Source of the DNA: Thalassospiraceae bacterium LMO-JJ14 | GTDB lineage: Bacteria > Pseudomonadota > Alphaproteobacteria > Rhodospirillales > Casp-alpha2 | DNA length: 64,000 nt | Reading direction: 5' to 3' | Assembly (NCBI GenBank): GCA_021555105.2 | Contig: CP134604.1 | Location: 2,790,001 to 2,854,000, forward strand | Shown: one piece after another, positions 23,256-61,941 of the stretch | How the letters are laid out: each line of letters starts with the position of its first letter | How positions within the stretch are numbered: the first letter of the stretch is position 1 | Notes under the pieces: model-generated | The model's database searches: none | Told to the model about the DNA's origin: nothing | The model's input: the letters and a program-made list of their open reading frames with translations, nothing else | Made by a program: the position numbers and the translations under genes

Positions 23256-24545
23256 CTATTTGTTCTCACGGAAATTCCGCCACATCACCATGGCGCCCGC
23301 GAACATCACGGCGCCGATGACGACCCAGGCGAGGCCGTAGTTCATTTCGCTGTGATCGAGGATCAGACCAAATATCGGCGGCCCGGCCGCGCCGCCGATG
23401 GACCACGCGACGGCGTTGTAGCCGATGCCGGAACCGATCAGCTCGGAAGGTACCGTCTCGGCGGTCATCGACAGCACCAGCGCCGCATAGGATGCCATCG
23501 CCAGGCCCATGACGGCGGCCAACGCCATCAGCCCCCAGTACGGCCAGCCGGGATTGACGAACAGCGTCACGGCGCAAACGCCAAGGCACGACGAGACGAT
23601 CGCCACCGTGATGCCCTTGCGCCGCCCGCCCAGAAAAACATCCGAGATATAGGGGAAGCCGACCCTGCCGATGGCGCTCGTGCCTTGTGCAAACGCGACG
23701 CCGAGCGCGGCGATGGGCTGGCTGGCCTGTGCCGCATCTTTCAGGAACAACGCCATGTAGGTAAACAGGCTCGATTGGCCGGTATTGAACAATATCGCCG
23801 AGACACAAATGACGTTCATGTTGCGGTTGGTGATGACCGTCTTGAGATCGGCAATGATCTGCCGCATGCCGCCTGTCCCCGCATGCGGCTTGCGCGTCAG
23901 CGGCAGCCACGCAAGCGCCGCGACAAAGGTCATGCCGACCGCGATCCACAGCACGCTACGCCAGTCCATGAAGGCCGCCATCACGCCGCCACCGGCACCG
24001 AGCAAGCCGCCGAGCGGCACGCCGAGTTGCTTCATGCCCATCGCCGTTCCGGTCCACGCCGGCGGGAACCAGCGCATGACGCCCTTGGCGGTCGCCGGAT
24101 TGACGAACGAATAACCGAGACCGATCAGGAACGATGCCGCCAGCGCCGGCAGGAACGTGTCGGCCAGGGCGAACAGCACTGTCCCCGCCGACATGGTCAT
24201 CATCGAACCGAACAGCGTCCAGCCGACACCGAGGCGGTCGGTGACGGCGCCGCTGGGTAACGCGGATAAAAGCTGCGCGCCGAACACACAGGACATGAAA
24301 AGCCCGAATTGCGCCGCGGAAATGCCGAGGTCCTCGCGGATCACCGGCCCCATGGCCATGATCGACAGATAGCATGACGTGCCGACCGTATGCGCGAGAC
24401 CGAGCAGGAAGATGCGAGCGCGCCAGGGATTAAACCCGGCCGGCGGGCCGGAGGGATTAAACCCGGCCGGCGGGCCGGAGGGATTGAAGCCTTGCGGCAA
24501 CGGGTTCGGCACGGGCGCGGGTTGGCCGTCGGCGCTGTCACTCAC
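23256..24545 (-). CDS. MFS transporter (2 of 2) with repeat-bearing N-terminus
   Basis: A 429-residue major facilitator carrier with 12 predicted spans. Loop marks are GAVTDRLGVGWTL between spans 2 and 3 and a GIGYNAVAWSIGGAAGPP stretch in the C-half. The start is GTG at 24545, overlapping the stop of the preceding MFS gene (GTGA), so translation is coupled. The frame runs open much further upstream only as a shadow of that gene. Before the first span lie two perfect copies of GFNPSGPPA plus a partial third, encoded by a 27-bp tandem repeat. It ends a five-gene acyl-CoA operon and probably imports a carboxylate used by it. Confidence 0.85.
   Translation of the reverse strand: MSDSADGQPAPVPNPLPQGFNPSGPPAGFNPSGPPAGFNPWRARIFLLGLAHTVGTSCYLSIMAMGPVIREDLGISAAQFGLFMSCVFGAQLLSALPSGAVTDRLGVGWTLFGSMMTMSAGTVLFALADTFLPALAASFLIGLGYSFVNPATAKGVMRWFPPAWTGTAMGMKQLGVPLGGLLGAGGGVMAAFMDWRSVLWIAVGMTFVAALAWLPLTRKPHAGTGGMRQIIADLKTVITNRNMNVICVSAILFNTGQSSLFTYMALFLKDAAQASQPIAALGVAFAQGTSAIGRVGFPYISDVFLGGRRKGITVAIVSSCLGVCAVTLFVNPGWPYWGLMALAAVMGLAMASYAALVLSMTAETVPSELIGSGIGYNAVAWSIGGAAGPPIFGLILDHSEMNYGLAWVVIGAVMFAGAMVMWRNFRENK
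24427..24480. repeat. 27-bp perfect tandem repeat inside an MFS gene
   Basis: Two identical 27-bp units back to back, followed by a partial third. Each unit is in frame and encodes GFNPSGPPA on the minus strand. The GC-rich core GGCCGGCGGGCC is itself palindromic. Length change here would keep the frame. Confidence 0.85.
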
Positions 24546-54666: not shown

Positions 54667-54741
54667 CCTAGCTTGACCTGAAGGTCGCAGCACGCGACCA
54701 TTGTGGAGTAATTTTTTGATGGCCAAAAAGGTCTTTTGTAT

Positions 54742-55698
54742 ATGACGCCCTTCGCGATTGCCGGTGTGCAGATGCACGTATCTGCCACCCATGAAAACGT
54801 CACCGCGATGTCGCACCGTATCGATCATGTGATGGTGCGCTTTCCGTGGGTACAGATGATCGTTTTCAGCGAACTGGCGCCTTACGGGCCTCTGACCGGC
54901 AATCATCCCGAGAGTCTCGAACCGGCCATCGACGTATTCCGTGAAGCGGCAATACGCCATAACGTCTGGGTGCTGCCGGGGTCCATGTTCGAGCGTTCCG
55001 AAGCCGGGCTGCATAACGTTGCCACGGTCATCAATCCGCAAGGCGAGGTTGTTGCCAAATACGCCAAGATGTTTCCGTTCCAGCCGTACGAATCCGGTGT
55101 CGAGGGCGGCACCGAGTTCTGCGTCTTCGATGTCCCGGGCGCCGGACGTTTCGGGGTTTCGATCTGCTATGACATCTGGTTCCCGGAAACCACACGGACC
55201 CTGGTCTCGATGGGTGCGGAAGTCCTTCTGCACCCGGTGCTGACCGGCACCATCGACCGCGACATCGAGCTTTCCATCGCGCGTTCCACCGCCGCGATGT
55301 TCCAGACCTATATCTTCGATATCAACGGCCTCGGCCCGGGCGGCACGGGGCGCTCATGCGTCGTCGATCCGTCCGGCACGTTCCTTTATCAGGCCGCCGG
55401 CCAGGAAGAAGTGATCCCGGTCGAAGTCGATTTCGATCTGGTCCGCCGTCAGCGCGCCGTCGGGCTGCGCGGTCTCGGCCAGACACTGAAGAGTTTCCGC
55501 GACCGCAACGCCTATTTCGGGGTCTACGACCCGGCGATCCACGACCCGAGCTATCTGTACAGCCTGGGCCCGCTCGAGATGCCGACACAAGGCACGCAGG
55601 AAGGTCTGCACGCATCGTCCCCCGCCGACATCACAGGCCACCGCGGACACAGCAATATTATGGTGCTCGACACCCACAAAAGCGCGAAAGACGCATAA
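54742..55698 (+). CDS. Carbon-nitrogen hydrolase (nitrilase superfamily amidase)
   Basis: A 318-residue nitrilase-superfamily enzyme with the Glu-Lys-Cys triad: E44 in VFSELAPYG, K109 in AKYAKMFPF and C142 in GVSICYDIWFPE. Members split C-N bonds of amides, carbamoyl amines or nitriles; N-carbamoylputrescine amidase is one. A 50-residue C-terminal extension has no known domain. Just upstream an 8-codon reading frame (54720-54746) overlaps the ATG by 4 nt and has its own GGAG, so a leader peptide may couple translation. Between gabT and an Orn/Lys/Arg decarboxylase, an amine-linked amide is the likely substrate. Confidence 0.87.
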   Translation: MTPFAIAGVQMHVSATHENVTAMSHRIDHVMVRFPWVQMIVFSELAPYGPLTGNHPESLEPAIDVFREAAIRHNVWVLPGSMFERSEAGLHNVATVINPQGEVVAKYAKMFPFQPYESGVEGGTEFCVFDVPGAGRFGVSICYDIWFPETTRTLVSMGAEVLLHPVLTGTIDRDIELSIARSTAAMFQTYIFDINGLGPGGTGRSCVVDPSGTFLYQAAGQEEVIPVEVDFDLVRRQRAVGLRGLGQTLKSFRDRNAYFGVYDPAIHDPSYLYSLGPLEMPTQGTQEGLHASSPADITGHRGHSNIMVLDTHKSAKDA

Positions 55699-55731: not shown

Positions 55732-58476
55732 ATGCCGGACGAAGGAGCGCAGGCTAAGGGCGTATCGCTGGGTCGATACTACAACGCAACCCAGTTACGC
55801 ATCGATACCTGGAACAAGCTGAAGAACATCACCCTGCGCCTCGTCGAGGGGCGCGAACGGGCGGATGATTACGCCAAAGCGCGCGCGTTGCTGGATGAAC
55901 TGGCGCCGTTCGAGACCTATTGGGCGTTCCCGGGCCTGCAAGATTTCCGCCAGCTTTATCATCTTGTCGAAAGCCGTGACGCGCGGACCCTGGGCCGTGC
56001 CGTATCGCGCATCGTCGGCGCCATGATGAGCGGCACGTACCGGCGCAAGCACGTCAATCTGGGACTGCACGGCGATGAGGAGCATCTCGACGACGAAGAG
56101 ATGGAGTCGCCCGAGGAACGCAACCGCCGCCGTCCCTATTTCGAGGTTCTGTTCGTCGACGACCTGAACTATGCGCAACAGCACCAGCAGCGCGAAGGCC
56201 TGACGGCCATGCGCCGCGAGGAAGACCCGTTCACCTATGAGCCGGTTTTCGTCTCGAGCTTCGAAGACGCAATCATTGCCTCGCTTTTCAATCACAACAT
56301 TCAGGCGATCGTCATCCGCTTCGGCTTTCCGTTCAAATCCATGAACGACCTGCCGGTGCTGAGCCGCTATCTGAAACTGGCGCACGTCGATGACGTCGAC
56401 TCCCTTGAGCCGCAGGACTACGGCGCCGTGCTGGCCGACGTGATTGCCCGCATCCGCCCCGAACTGGACCTTTATCTGGTCACCGACCAGAACGTCGAGG
56501 ATGTCGCCGGACGCGTCGGCGATTGCTGCCGCCGGATTTTCTATAACCAGGAGGATTTCCTGGAACTGCATCTGAACATCCTGCGCGGCGTCGATCAGCG
56601 CTATCAGTCGCCGTTCTTCACGGCGCTCAGGAACTATGCCAAGCAGCCGACCGGCGTGTTCCATGCCCTGCCGATTTCGCGCGGCAAGTCGATTTCCAAA
56701 TCGAACTGGATCCGCGACATGGGCGAGTTCTATGGCATGAACATCTTCCTTGCCGAAACGTCGGCGACATCGGGCGGGCTGGACTCGCTGCTGGAGCCGC
56801 ACGGTCCGCTCAAGAAAGCACAGGAACTGGCGTCCAGGGCCTTCGGGTCGCGCAAGACGTTCTTCGCCACCAACGGCACCTCGACCTGCAACAAGATTGT
56901 CGTCCAGGCCATCGTGCGGCCCGGCGACATCGTGCTGGTCGACCGCGACTGTCACAAGTCGCACCACTACGGGATGGTGCTGTGCGGCGCCCACGTCGTC
57001 TATCTCGACAGCTATCCGCTCAGCGAATATTCCATGTACGGCGCCGTGCCGCTGCGTGAAATCAAGAAAGAGCTGCTGGAACTCAAGGCCGCCGGCAAGC
57101 TCGACAAGGTGCGCATGCTTTTGCTCACCAACTGCACCTTCGACGGACTTGTCTATAATGTCGAACGGGTCATGGAAGAATGTCTGGCGATCAAGCCGGA
57201 CCTGGTCTTTTTATGGGATGAAGCATGGTTCGGCTTTGCCCGTTTCGGCCCGACCTATCGCCAGCGCACCGGCATGTACCAGGCCAAGCACTTGCGCGAA
57301 AAATTCAAGTCCGAGGAATACCGCGAAGAATATGCGGTCCATAAGGCCAAGCTGGACGAAGCCGGTGACGACATCGACACGCTGCTCGACATGCGCCTGA
57401 TGCCGGACCCGAATCAGGCGCGGGTCCGCGTTTATTCCACGCAATCGACGCATAAGACCCTGACCTCGCTCCGCCAAGGATCGATGATCCATGTGCACGA
57501 TCAGGATTATTCGTCGAAGGTCGAAGAACCGTTCCACGAAGCGTTCATGACGCATACCTCGACATCGCCGAACTACCAGATTCTGGCCTCGCTCGACGTC
57601 GGCCGGCGTCAGGTCGAACTGGAAGGGTTCGAACTGGTACAAAAGCAGGTCGAAATGGCCATGGTGCTGCGCCAGAAGGTCCGGACCCATCCGCTTTTGT
57701 CGAAATACTTCAAGATCCTCACCGTCGGCGACATGATCCCCGCGGCATACCGCCAGTCTGGCATCGAAAGCTATTACGAACCCGACAAGGGCTGGAACGA
57801 TATCTGGGAAGCCTGGGCGGGGGACGAATTCGCCCTCGATGCGACACGGATTACGCTGCTCGTCGGCGGCACCGGTCTTGACGGCGACACCTTCAAGAAT
57901 GACGAGTTGATGGACAAGTACGGCATCCAGATCAACAAGACGTCACGCAACACCGTACTGTTCATGACCAATATCGGCACGACCCGCTCGTCCATCGCGT
58001 ATCTGATCGAGGTTCTGGTCAAGATCGCCACGGAACAGGACGAACGCCTCGAGGACATGAACGCGCCGGAGAAAAAGGCGCACGAGAAAAAGGTCAACGC
58101 GCTGCTCAACGAACTGCCGCCGCTGCCCGATTTCTCGCGTTTCCACAATGCATTCCGGCCCGACCCCAAGGGGGATACCCGCGAAGGCGTGATGCGCGAT
58201 GCGTATTTCCTCTCCTACGACGAGGATTCCTGCGAATACCTGACGATGGAAGACGGCAGCATCGACGACGCCATGAACGCCGGCCGCGAGGTCGTCTCGG
58301 CGACGTTCATCATCCCCTACCCGCCCGGCTTCCCGATCCTCGTGCCGGGTCAGGTCGTCAGCAAGGAAATCATCGGATTTTTCCGCGCCCTCGACGTCAA
58401 GGAAATCCACGGCTACCGCCCGGACCTGGGGCTTCGCGTGTTTACCGAAGCCGCCCTCAAGGCACGCCTTAAATAA
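55732..58476 (+). CDS. Large PLP-dependent Orn/Lys/Arg decarboxylase
   Basis: A 914-residue fold-type I decarboxylase. The PLP lysine is K575 in STQSTHKTLTSLRQGS; the upstream part of the active site reads SATSGGLDSLLEPHGPLKKAQ, FFATNGTSTCNKIVVQAI, DRDCHKSHHYG and FLWDEAWFGFARF. The C-terminal domain is of the usual type (IPYPPGFPILVPGQVV). In E. coli AdiA (755 residues) the lysine is K386, so this enzyme has about 190 extra residues before the core, partly charged (HGDEEHLDDEEMESPEERNR). It should make agmatine, putrescine or cadaverine; which one is not clear. GGGAG precedes the ATG. Confidence 0.88.
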   Translation: MPDEGAQAKGVSLGRYYNATQLRIDTWNKLKNITLRLVEGRERADDYAKARALLDELAPFETYWAFPGLQDFRQLYHLVESRDARTLGRAVSRIVGAMMSGTYRRKHVNLGLHGDEEHLDDEEMESPEERNRRRPYFEVLFVDDLNYAQQHQQREGLTAMRREEDPFTYEPVFVSSFEDAIIASLFNHNIQAIVIRFGFPFKSMNDLPVLSRYLKLAHVDDVDSLEPQDYGAVLADVIARIRPELDLYLVTDQNVEDVAGRVGDCCRRIFYNQEDFLELHLNILRGVDQRYQSPFFTALRNYAKQPTGVFHALPISRGKSISKSNWIRDMGEFYGMNIFLAETSATSGGLDSLLEPHGPLKKAQELASRAFGSRKTFFATNGTSTCNKIVVQAIVRPGDIVLVDRDCHKSHHYGMVLCGAHVVYLDSYPLSEYSMYGAVPLREIKKELLELKAAGKLDKVRMLLLTNCTFDGLVYNVERVMEECLAIKPDLVFLWDEAWFGFARFGPTYRQRTGMYQAKHLREKFKSEEYREEYAVHKAKLDEAGDDIDTLLDMRLMPDPNQARVRVYSTQSTHKTLTSLRQGSMIHVHDQDYSSKVEEPFHEAFMTHTSTSPNYQILASLDVGRRQVELEGFELVQKQVEMAMVLRQKVRTHPLLSKYFKILTVGDMIPAAYRQSGIESYYEPDKGWNDIWEAWAGDEFALDATRITLLVGGTGLDGDTFKNDELMDKYGIQINKTSRNTVLFMTNIGTTRSSIAYLIEVLVKIATEQDERLEDMNAPEKKAHEKKVNALLNELPPLPDFSRFHNAFRPDPKGDTREGVMRDAYFLSYDEDSCEYLTMEDGSIDDAMNAGREVVSATFIIPYPPGFPILVPGQVVSKEIIGFFRALDVKEIHGYRPDLGLRVFTEAALKARLK

Positions 58477-58532
58477 TCAAAATCGCGGCAAAAATCGCCG
58501 CCGCTTAAAAGTTAAACAGGGAGAATAAAACA

Positions 58533-60188
58533 ATGGCCAAAGCCACGACGAAAAAAACCGCCGCGAAGAAAGCCCCGGCTAAGAAAGCAGCCGCCAAGAA
58601 AGCGCCAGCAAAGAAAGCCGCTGCAAAAAAAGCAGCCGTTAAAAAGGCGCCCGCCAAAAAGACAACCGCCAGGAAAGCCCTGGCAAAGAAAGCCACGGCA
58701 AAGAAACCGGTGGCGAAAAAAGCAGCCGTGCGCCGTCCGCGCCAGAAGAAGCTCAAGAATATTTCGGAAATCCGCCGCTTCTTCCATCGCAACGAGGATC
58801 CGATCTTCTTCATCAGCGCGACGAACTTCAACCTGCTCGGCATTGACGAGTGGTGCCGGAACTTCAAGTACATCTGCTACATCGATTGCTACGACGGGCG
58901 TCACCCGAATGTCTTTGTACCGGACGAAGCGGCGCATCCTGAATTCGAATCGATCGAAGACATCGTCGCCTACCTGCTCGAGCACAAGGAAGTGATCGAC
59001 TACGTCCGCTCCAAGGGCGGCAAGCCGAAAGCCGTGTTCCTGATGTTCGACAAGCGCGTCGAGAAAGTCTGCAAGGAACTGGGTCTGGAAATCTGGTTCC
59101 CGAAAGCAGCGCTTCGCGGCGCCATCGACGACAAGATCGAAACCGTGCGCATCGGGAACAAGGCCGGTGTGCCCTCCGTTCCCAACACGCTCGGCAAGAT
59201 CGACAGCTGGGCCGACCTGCAGAAGCTTGCCAAGCCGCTCGGCAACGATCTGGTGCTGCAATCCGCGTTCGGCGACAGCGGCCACACCACGTTCTTCATC
59301 AAGAGCGAAAAAGACTATCGCCGCTACGAGCACGACATCGTCGGTCAGGGCGAAATCAAGGTCATGAAGCGGATCGACTGCCGCGGCTCGGCGATCGAGG
59401 CCTGCGCCACGTCGAAGGGGACCATCGTCGGCCCGTTGATGACGGAACTGGTCGGCTTCAAGGAACTGACGCCGTATCGTGGCGGCTGGTGCGGTAACGA
59501 AATCTTCCCCGAAGCCTTCGATGCCAAAATCCGCAAGAAAGCCCGCGAATACACGTTCCAGTTCGGGAACCAGCTGGTCAAGGAAGGCTACCGCGGCTAT
59601 TTCGAATTGGACTTCCTGATCGATCAGAACGACGGCAACATCTATCTGGGCGAGTGCAACCCGCGTGTCACGGGCGCCAGCTCGATGACCAACCACGCCG
59701 CGTTCGCCCACGCCGATGCGCCGCTGTTCCTGTTCCACCTGCTGGAATTCTCCGGCGTGCCGTTCGACATCGACGTCAACGAATTGAACAACCGCTGGGC
59801 CGATGCCGACAATATCGACGGCTGGTGCCAGATGGTCATCAAACACACCGAGGACAACGTCGACATCATCACCGAAGCGCCGGAATCCGGTATCTGGAAA
59901 CTCGCCAAGGACGGTAGTGTCAGCTATGACCGCTTCGACTACCACCGCCGCGCGGTGGAAAGCGAAAACGAGGCGTTCTTCCTGCGTATCTCCGACAAGG
60001 GAGATTACCGTTACGAGGGCGCTGATCTCGGCATCCTGATCACCCGCGGCCGGGCGATGGACGACAAGTTCAAGCTGACCAAGCGTTCCAAGCAGTGGAT
60101 TGCCGGGATCAAGGCGAGCTACAAGGCGAAGCCGCTGCCCAAGGCACAGGCAGTGGAAATGTCGGATCCTGCGTTCAAGATTCTTTGA
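58533..60188 (+). CDS. ATP-grasp ligase with histone-H1-like Lys/Ala-rich N-terminus
   Basis: A 551-residue protein in two parts. Residues 1-74 are a run of AKKA/AKKP-type repeats, as in histone H1 tails and bacterial H1-like proteins. Residues 80-500 form an ATP-grasp enzyme: [19 protein letters not shown] (ATP lysine/phosphate region), [27 protein letters not shown] with metal ligands about E358, E374 and N376. ATP-grasp enzymes join a carboxylate to an amine through an acyl phosphate. It is 56 bp after the decarboxylase and just before a C45 hydrolase, so the product amine is a probable substrate. Automated labels would call it a biotin carboxylase, but no biotin partner is here. Confidence 0.85.
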
Positions 60189-60219: not shown

Positions 60220-61209
60220 ATGGATTTAGTTTTCGAAACGGTAAGTGAGGCCAAGGCCGGCCCCAAGTGGCAGTCTTTGTTCGCGACTCTGTGGCCCGCT
60301 TACCAGCAATGGTTCATGTCCGATGGCATCGAGGCCCGCCAGACGTATCTGGCGGGTCATCGGGCCTTCAAGAAATACATGCCCGAAATGCTGCCGATGT
60401 ACGCGCATCTCTGCGAGCTTGCCGGCGGCGGCGATCTTGCGTCGCGGTTTCTCAGCTTTTACTGCCCGCCGGCCTATCTGTCGGGCTGCTCGCAGGCGAT
60501 CTGGCCCGGTAACGAGCCGATGCTGGTGCGCAACTACGATTACGCGCCGGCGCTCTGTGACGGGCTGATCCTGCATTCAAAATGGCACGATCGCTGGGTC
60601 ATGGGCATGTCGGACGGCCTGTTCGGGCTTGTCGACGGTATCAACGACCGCGGCCTTGCGGTGTCGCTGACCTTCGGCGGACGGACCATCGTCGGCGACG
60701 GCTTCGGCGTGCCGATCATCCTCAGATACATTCTGGAATTCTGCGACACCGCCGGGGACGCCATCGCCGCACTGCAACGCATCCCCTGCCACATGACCTA
60801 TAACGTCACCGTGGTCGACAAGCAGGGCAAGTATGCGACCGTCTATCTGGCCCCGGATCGAAAGGCCATCGTGACCGACCAGCGCGTCGCCACCAATCAC
60901 CAGGAACGCGTCGAATGGCACCGCCATGCCCGCGCCACGGCGACGGTCGAACGCGAGCGGTTTCTGTTGCAGCGCCTGACGCTGCACGACGAACCGGCCG
61001 ACCGCTTCATCGGTGCTTTCCAGAAACCGCCGTTGTATTCGACCGCCTTCGGGCGCGGTTTCGGCACCGTTTATACGGCGATATACTGGCCCAAGCGCGG
61101 CATCGCCGAATATCGCTGGCCGGGCGTGCACTGGACACAACGCCTCAAGGCCCCGCTCGAAGGGCAACGGCACATCCGCTTCCCGATGTCCGATGAAGCG
61201 CTCGCGTAG
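60220..61209 (+). CDS. C45-family (acyl-CoA:6-aminopenicillanate acyltransferase-like) N-terminal-nucleophile hydrolase
   Basis: A 329-residue Ntn-fold protein. C45 enzymes cut themselves before a cysteine that then serves as nucleophile; here the matching site is YLSGCSQAIWPGNEPMLVRNYDYAP, with Gly89-Cys90. The following MSDGLFGLVDGINDRGLAVSLTFGGR and TYNVTVVDKQGKYATVYLAP blocks are also of the family. C45 relatives either transfer acyl groups to amines or hydrolyse such amides (Drosophila Tan splits N-beta-alanyl-dopamine). It is 31 bp after the ATP-grasp gene, which suggests one makes and the other breaks the same bond type. Confidence 0.85.
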   Translation: MDLVFETVSEAKAGPKWQSLFATLWPAYQQWFMSDGIEARQTYLAGHRAFKKYMPEMLPMYAHLCELAGGGDLASRFLSFYCPPAYLSGCSQAIWPGNEPMLVRNYDYAPALCDGLILHSKWHDRWVMGMSDGLFGLVDGINDRGLAVSLTFGGRTIVGDGFGVPIILRYILEFCDTAGDAIAALQRIPCHMTYNVTVVDKQGKYATVYLAPDRKAIVTDQRVATNHQERVEWHRHARATATVERERFLLQRLTLHDEPADRFIGAFQKPPLYSTAFGRGFGTVYTAIYWPKRGIAEYRWPGVHWTQRLKAPLEGQRHIRFPMSDEALA

Positions 61210-61287
61210 TGTCATAAAACTTTGATGATTTCCCCGCTGTCCTGATTTGTTAAGGTGTGTCTTGGTTTAGCCGGACGGAAGCGATCA

Positions 61288-61941
61288 TTGAAAAAAGTCT
61301 ACAAGCGCATCTTCAAGGATTTCACGGCCAACGTCGTGCCGCTGGACTGTGGCGAGAAGTGCCGTCATCTGAACGACGGAATCCCGGTCTGCTGCGATAT
61401 CGAACAGGCCGTGCCGATCATGGACAAGCGCGAGTTCAAGCTTTTGCGCGGACGTTCCGATCTGTGGCGCAAGTACCGGCCGCCGAACAAGCATGGCGAG
61501 GAACTGGTTGAATCCCTGCATCACGATTGCGTGGCGGCGGAATGCAAGGGGGCGCAATTCTGCGAGCGCGATAACCGCTCGCTGTCATGCCGGGCCTTTC
61601 CGTTCTTTCCCTACATCACCAGGGAAGGCGATTTCATCGGCATGGCGACGTATTGGACGTTCGAGGACCGCTGCTGGGTGATCAGTAACCTGAAAAAGGT
61701 CACGCGCGAATTCATTGCCGAATTCCATGACGTGTACGAACGCCTGTTCGAGAAGAAATCCGACGAATTCGAGGTCTTCAAGGACTACTCGGCGACCATG
61801 CGGCGCGTGTTCTCACGTAAGGGCCGGCCGATCCACATCATCGACCGCGACAAGAAATTCCATGCCATTCTGCCCAAGGGCGCAGGCATGCACCGGGTCA
61901 AGAAAAGCGAACTGCCGACGTTCGAGCCCTACGCGGAATAG
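61288..61941 (+). CDS. Cysteine-cluster (YkgJ-like) protein
   Basis: A 217-residue protein with many ordered cysteines: CGEKCRHLNDGIPVCC near the N-terminus, then HHDCVAAECKGAQFCERDNRSLSCRAFPFFPYI. This is the look of the YkgJ/zinc- or iron-chelating cysteine-cluster family. The start is uncertain: TTG 61288 has GGAAG 6 nt upstream, while GTG 61255 would add 11 residues. The role is unknown; relatives have been linked to metal binding and to modification of proteins. It closes the amine cluster on this strand. Confidence 0.8.
   Translation: MKKVYKRIFKDFTANVVPLDCGEKCRHLNDGIPVCCDIEQAVPIMDKREFKLLRGRSDLWRKYRPPNKHGEELVESLHHDCVAAECKGAQFCERDNRSLSCRAFPFFPYITREGDFIGMATYWTFEDRCWVISNLKKVTREFIAEFHDVYERLFEKKSDEFEVFKDYSATMRRVFSRKGRPIHIIDRDKKFHAILPKGAGMHRVKKSELPTFEPYAE

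Follow-up and report, generated by a model that had tools for sequence, protein, structure and literature searches.

Lysine repeats resembling those of histone H1 are familiar mainly from proteins that handle DNA or granules. In Pseudomonas, AlgP and PhaF carry a disordered Lys/Ala/Pro repeat (KPAA/AKKA domain) at one end of a folded protein; these repeats bind DNA, and AlgP localises to polyphosphate granules, where its tail is needed for granule spacing (PMC9239181). Actinobacterial topoisomerase I is likewise an enzyme with an H1-like lysine-repeat tail, and in Streptomyces TopA the lysine repeats raise processivity (PMC7398561). A third group of comparable composition and repeat style is formed by the chlamydial Hc2 and Bordetella-type H1-like proteins (PF07382).

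In a 64,000-nucleotide stretch of the genome of Thalassospiraceae bacterium LMO-JJ14 (contig CP134604.1; here called the window), an ATP-grasp gene, referred to below as the window gene, begins with a tail of this type (Table 1). Like the repeats of AlgP, PhaF and TopA, the tail is Lys/Ala/Pro-rich, repetitive and predicted to be disordered. However, the AlgP and PhaF repeats are C-terminal, longer (154 amino acids in AlgP) and found on granule-organising or nucleoid proteins, whereas that of the window gene is N-terminal and precedes a ligase. Actinobacterial TopA acts on DNA, so its tail aids substrate binding, whereas no nucleic-acid substrate is known for the ATP-grasp enzyme. The tail scored 37.6 bits against the HC2 histone H1-like model (PF07382), below the gathering cut-off of 40, and differs from the members of that family in being fused to an enzyme.

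Table 1. Coordinates of the ATP-grasp gene, its parts and its operon partners in the window
Feature	Position	Strand	Basis
Carbon-nitrogen hydrolase (nitrilase superfamily)	54736..55698	+	PF00795; 71/91 loci, many others cut short
PLP-dependent Orn/Lys/Arg-type decarboxylase	55732..58476	+	Pfam OKR_DC_1; 89/91 loci
Shine-Dalgarno GGGAG	58519..58523	+	9 nt 5' of the ATG, read directly
ATP-grasp gene with N-terminal Lys/Ala tail	58533-60188	+	551 aa, ATG start
AKKA-type Lys/Ala/Pro tail, residues 1-73	58533..58751	+	13 basic pairs, 5-residue period, no acidic residue
ATP-grasp core NF005096/PRK06524, residues 74-551	58752..60185	+	Profile score, invariant residues, predicted fold
C45 autoproteolytic acyltransferase/hydrolase	60220..61209	+	PF03417; 89/91 loci

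A lysine-rich tail at the start of the ATP-grasp gene

The window gene really begins with the tail, which is real and translated. Two claims of the first-pass annotation, that an H1-like Lys/Ala tail is translated ahead of an ATP-grasp enzyme and that a Shine-Dalgarno sequence lies upstream of it, were borne out, the AKKA repeats being in frame from the ATG. The AACAGGGAG context 5' of this ATG was also found in same-genus relatives, and an ATG with a Shine-Dalgarno sequence was present in the window gene and nearly all tailed relatives. As most family members start near the core, it could be argued that the start codon is wrong or that the tail is translated repeat noise, an explanation to which we give scarcely any weight. 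No start bearing a Shine-Dalgarno sequence was found near residue 73 or near residue 75, the latter being where the same annotation had supposed an alternative start might lie; only two internal GTGs, both lacking such a sequence, were identified there. A wrong start was thus rejected on the positions of the Shine-Dalgarno sequences, and an artefact of either kind is at odds with the third-position-only variation and conserved charge described below.

Residues 1 to 72 comprise 25 lysines, 4 arginines, 26 alanines and 5 prolines, with neither aspartate nor glutamate, and the net charge is +30 over the first 74 residues versus -8 for the core. The basic pairs, at residues 7, 12, 17 and so on to 67, form an unbroken series with an exact five-residue period. 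As the AKKA motif pattern gave 14 matches in the 3.9-Mb genome and the reversed pattern none, the tail is not a product of chance. In the AlphaFold model, residues 1 to 60 had a pLDDT of about 33 to 43, and the N-terminal tail is predicted to be intrinsically disordered. Lysine codons in the tail (58533-58748) are rich in AAA (16 of 25, versus 8 of 38 in the core; p = 0.001), which may reflect an effect on translation near the N-terminus. Elsewhere in the window, a perfect 27-bp tandem repeat of 2.3 copies (24425-24485) bears no relation to the tail.

Distribution of the tail and selection on its charge

Orthologues were collected from 80 relatives represented by genome contigs and supplemented from the whole genomes of further family members, and their N-termini were assigned by start codon and Shine-Dalgarno sequence. 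In an unrooted maximum-likelihood tree of 85 orthologue cores, a single fork (100/100) separated 20 sequences with a basic extension of 15 to 77 amino acids from 65 with only 3 to 8 residues ahead of the core, typically MPKK. The tail is therefore lineage-specific, confined to one branch of the tree and, because the tree is unrooted, its gain in one lineage is proposed as a simpler history than its loss. The comparison of tail length that the first-pass annotation had called for thus gave a divided answer: absence of the tail from orthologues, which it would have counted against its reading, was found in 65 of the 85, but in none of the 20 members of the window gene's clade. Within that clade, extensions were 15 to 27 residues on the Kiloniella/Kordiimonas side and 28 to 77 on the side of the window gene. 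The tail of Hwanghaeella grinnelliae is 52 amino acids long, and Leisingera and Ruegeria are without one. Length changes quickly, with sister sequences of 28 and 66 amino acids and same-genus relatives ranging from 43 to 72, so an exact length is not needed.

The same annotation had described the repeat DNA as clean, which it is not, as TRF matches were only 70 to 80%. When repeat units sharing an amino acid were compared at a lag of five codons, nucleotide differences at codon positions 1, 2 and 3 numbered 0, 0 and 16, respectively, with 0, 0 and 26 at lag 10 and 0, 0 and 21 at lag 15. This confinement of differences between like residues to third positions indicates that the repeat is maintained at the protein level. 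Of the 826 tail residues of the 20 orthologues, five were acidic, compared with 15% D/E in the cores, and none was aromatic or a cysteine.

The closest relative of the window gene (L019) has a core 96% identical and a tail of the same length. The two tails differ by 18 amino acid changes, all within A/P/V/T/L/I or within K/R, such that the 29 basic positions remain basic and none of the 18 changes crosses the line between basic and nonbasic residues. Of the possible nonsynonymous single-nucleotide changes in the tail, 48% would cross this line, and the chance of observing 0 of 18 under random single-nucleotide changes is approximately 7e-6. Nonsynonymous codons made up 18 of 72 in the tail versus 17 of 391 in the core. 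Judged from these substitutions, the tail changes faster than the core with its charge held, and it is under selection for charge while its sequence and length drift. DNA slippage without selection was rejected as the whole story on the third-position-only variation and the conserved charge. Nor was there any sign that the tail had been copied recently from elsewhere among the AKKA genes, as AKKA stretches within the genome match each other at just 70 to 80% identity.

The enzyme core and its operon

The core scored 755.9 bits against NF005096 (PRK06524), above the curated cut-off of 684, and covered 475 of the 493 model positions (10 to 484). Typical members of this family start with MPKKT followed directly by the core, to which the window gene adds its 73-residue basic tail. 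Residues E358, E374, N376 and R378, corresponding to the ATP/Mg residues (E and ExNxR), were invariant in 55 sequences. The AlphaFold model of the whole enzyme (mean pLDDT 71, pTM 0.73) has a predicted biotin-carboxylase/PurK-type ATP-grasp fold, with PurK and biotin carboxylase as best structural matches (Z about 19.6). PylC and an L-amino-acid ligase were nearly tied with these; thus, the substrate of the enzyme cannot be deduced from its fold.

The NCBIfam name of NF005096 is biotin carboxylase. In biotin carboxylase, the glutamate following ExNxR is catalytic. The full motif, ExNxRxQVE, is absent from the window gene, which reads ECNPRVTGA; here T380, G381 and A382 replace Q, V and E, and the first two of these residues were invariant in 55 orthologues. 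No biotinyl domain or carrier partner was identified in the conserved operon or among the scanned genes around the ATP-grasp gene. Biotin carboxylase function was rejected on the changed motif and the missing carrier, and for the same reasons the family name is misleading.

The neighbourhood of decarboxylase, ATP-grasp and C45 genes is common to relatives, and throughout Alphaproteobacteria, as well as in a few Gammaproteobacteria, the CN-hydrolase, decarboxylase, ATP-grasp and C45 genes stay together irrespective of the tail (the 91 loci of Table 1 include a few genomes twice). In the window, 31 bases separate the stop of the ATP-grasp gene from the C45 gene, whose product scored 175.4 bits against NF040521 (cut-off 85). 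The closest solved relative of the decarboxylase is 9n0n (also 9n0o), at 882.7 bits, which is Rv2531c of Mycobacterium tuberculosis (PMC12910592). Plausibly, the decarboxylase converts an amino acid to an amine to which the ATP-grasp ligase would couple a carboxylate, with the resulting amide processed by the C45 and nitrilase-like enzymes. No paper characterising this operon was found in the literature collection searched, and its conservation in Alphaproteobacteria could point to the function of Rv2531c. A 228-amino-acid cysteine-rich protein (61255-61941), without a Pfam or NCBIfam match, adjoins the operon at 6 loci, all of them in close relatives.

The first-pass annotation had suggested that lysines of the tail might themselves be the acceptor amines of the ligase. 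Such self-modification is chemically conceivable, as an ATP-grasp ligase here adjoins an amine-forming decarboxylase and the lysine-using PylC is among the many nearly tied structural matches. However, the 65 short orthologues retain the conserved core and operon, and tails of the same make-up occur on proteins that are not ligases. Since the make-up of the operon does not depend on the tail, it is unlikely that the ligase normally uses the tail lysines as acceptors, and we regard this suggestion as very improbable.

Docking of the enzyme on acidic partners, either the CN-hydrolase or the decarboxylase, to form a metabolon is also improbable, if less so. In tailed genomes, the CN-hydrolase carried slightly more negative charge (median -3.8 versus -2.5 per 100 amino acids; p = 7e-5) and the decarboxylase marginally so (p = 0.02), but the shifts are small and confounded by lineage, and the ATP-grasp core itself was also more acidic in tailed genomes (p = 0.01). 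Moreover, the partners lack a typical acidic extension, and the charge of C45 was unchanged. Electrostatic pairing with operon partners was rejected on the small and lineage-confounded shifts.

Other AKKA tails and the proposed role of the tail

Using pattern searches, which detect only repeats with a five-residue period, C-terminal AKKA tails were identified in the same genome on ribosomal protein L21, topoisomerase I (TopA) and 2-oxoglutarate dehydrogenase E1 (SucA). Sister genera carry such tails on L21, ribosomal protein S1, trigger factor and NAD(P) transhydrogenase alpha (PntA). Of 61 relatives, 49 have AKKA motifs, and many of these lack the ATP-grasp gene. The view of the first-pass annotation that such repeats normally belong to nucleoid proteins is too narrow for this genome, where they also occur on L21, TopA, SucA and an antiporter. 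The latter is of the Na+/H+-exchanger type (L088, G000:C1, about 859,200), and its C-terminal tail of AKK/PAQKK repeats follows a PEAAAE repeat. A free-standing 168-amino-acid H1-like protein (L002, G000:C1, about 2,318,700) scored 43.9 bits against HC2, above the Pfam cut-off of 40. AKKA stretches lie near the C-terminus of transhydrogenase alpha in L217 (1417-2748, minus strand) and L242 (1447-2700, minus strand), the latter assigned by sequence likeness only. The C-terminal AKKA/PQAKK tail of SucA (L007/L192, G000:C1:3726774-3728396, minus strand) places the same repeat on another metabolic enzyme, but at the opposite end and on an unrelated protein. It is basic and varied in length in all family members with a readable C-terminus; most other families of the order lack it or have a far weaker one. 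In the literature collection searched, no paper on nucleoid-associated 2-oxoglutarate dehydrogenase was found.

This breadth raises the possibility that the tail has no purpose specific to the enzyme and is a general trait of the whole lineage, either a solubility or crowding tag selected for its charge or a by-product of repeat expansion that is mildly beneficial in a proteome tolerating AKKA tails. Consistent with this, L21, TopA, SucA, PntA, S1 and trigger factor are also tailed in the family, most of the 49 relatives with AKKA motifs lack a full NF005096 orthologue, and tail length changes rapidly. However, none of the substitutions between the closest pair changed the charge class, and a basic extension is retained by all orthologues of the tailed clade, from which it follows that the tail is not drifting freely; we give a general feature of this kind a modest chance of being correct. 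A further, unlikely reading is that AKKA tails serve the family as a general address tag, which would bring central metabolic enzymes (SucA, NAD(P) transhydrogenase alpha and the ATP-grasp ligase) onto a polyanionic scaffold, such as the nucleoid, the ribosome or polyphosphate, shared with H1-like and ribosomal proteins.

We consider it fairly probable, by analogy with the described repeats, that the polycationic tail is a nonspecific electrostatic anchor to a cellular polyanion, one that would alter the location of the enzyme and not its chemistry; of the roles put forward in the first-pass annotation, polyanion binding is thus the best supported candidate. As its charge is kept in one lineage, it is absent from most relatives and several such tails exist, the tail is probably a sticky anchor and not a catalytic part. 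In a single lineage of Alphaproteobacteria, a predicted disordered tail of the H1/AlgP/PhaF/TopA type is attached to an ATP-grasp ligase that is ordinary in other respects, and it would hold this ligase on a polyanion, most likely DNA or RNA and possibly polyphosphate. Because most orthologues keep the operon and a conserved core without the tail, anchoring should shift where the enzyme sits and leave catalysis unchanged. From the genome and family, the presence of the motif on DNA- and RNA-handling proteins (L21, TopA, S1, ribosome-bound trigger factor and H1-like proteins) was counted in favour of the anchor, whereas tails on SucA, NAD(P) transhydrogenase alpha and the antiporter, which have no obvious nucleic-acid role, count against nucleic acid as its target; the target could therefore be another, such as acidic proteins or membrane lipids. 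We infer the binding of a polyanion, its target and its physiological use from these comparisons.

Overall, one lineage has an H1-like repeat fixed on a metabolic ligase and selected for its charge, while relatives that share the operon have no such repeat on the enzyme. Since tailed and tail-less relatives share the operon, the role of such tails on a metabolic enzyme is directly testable.
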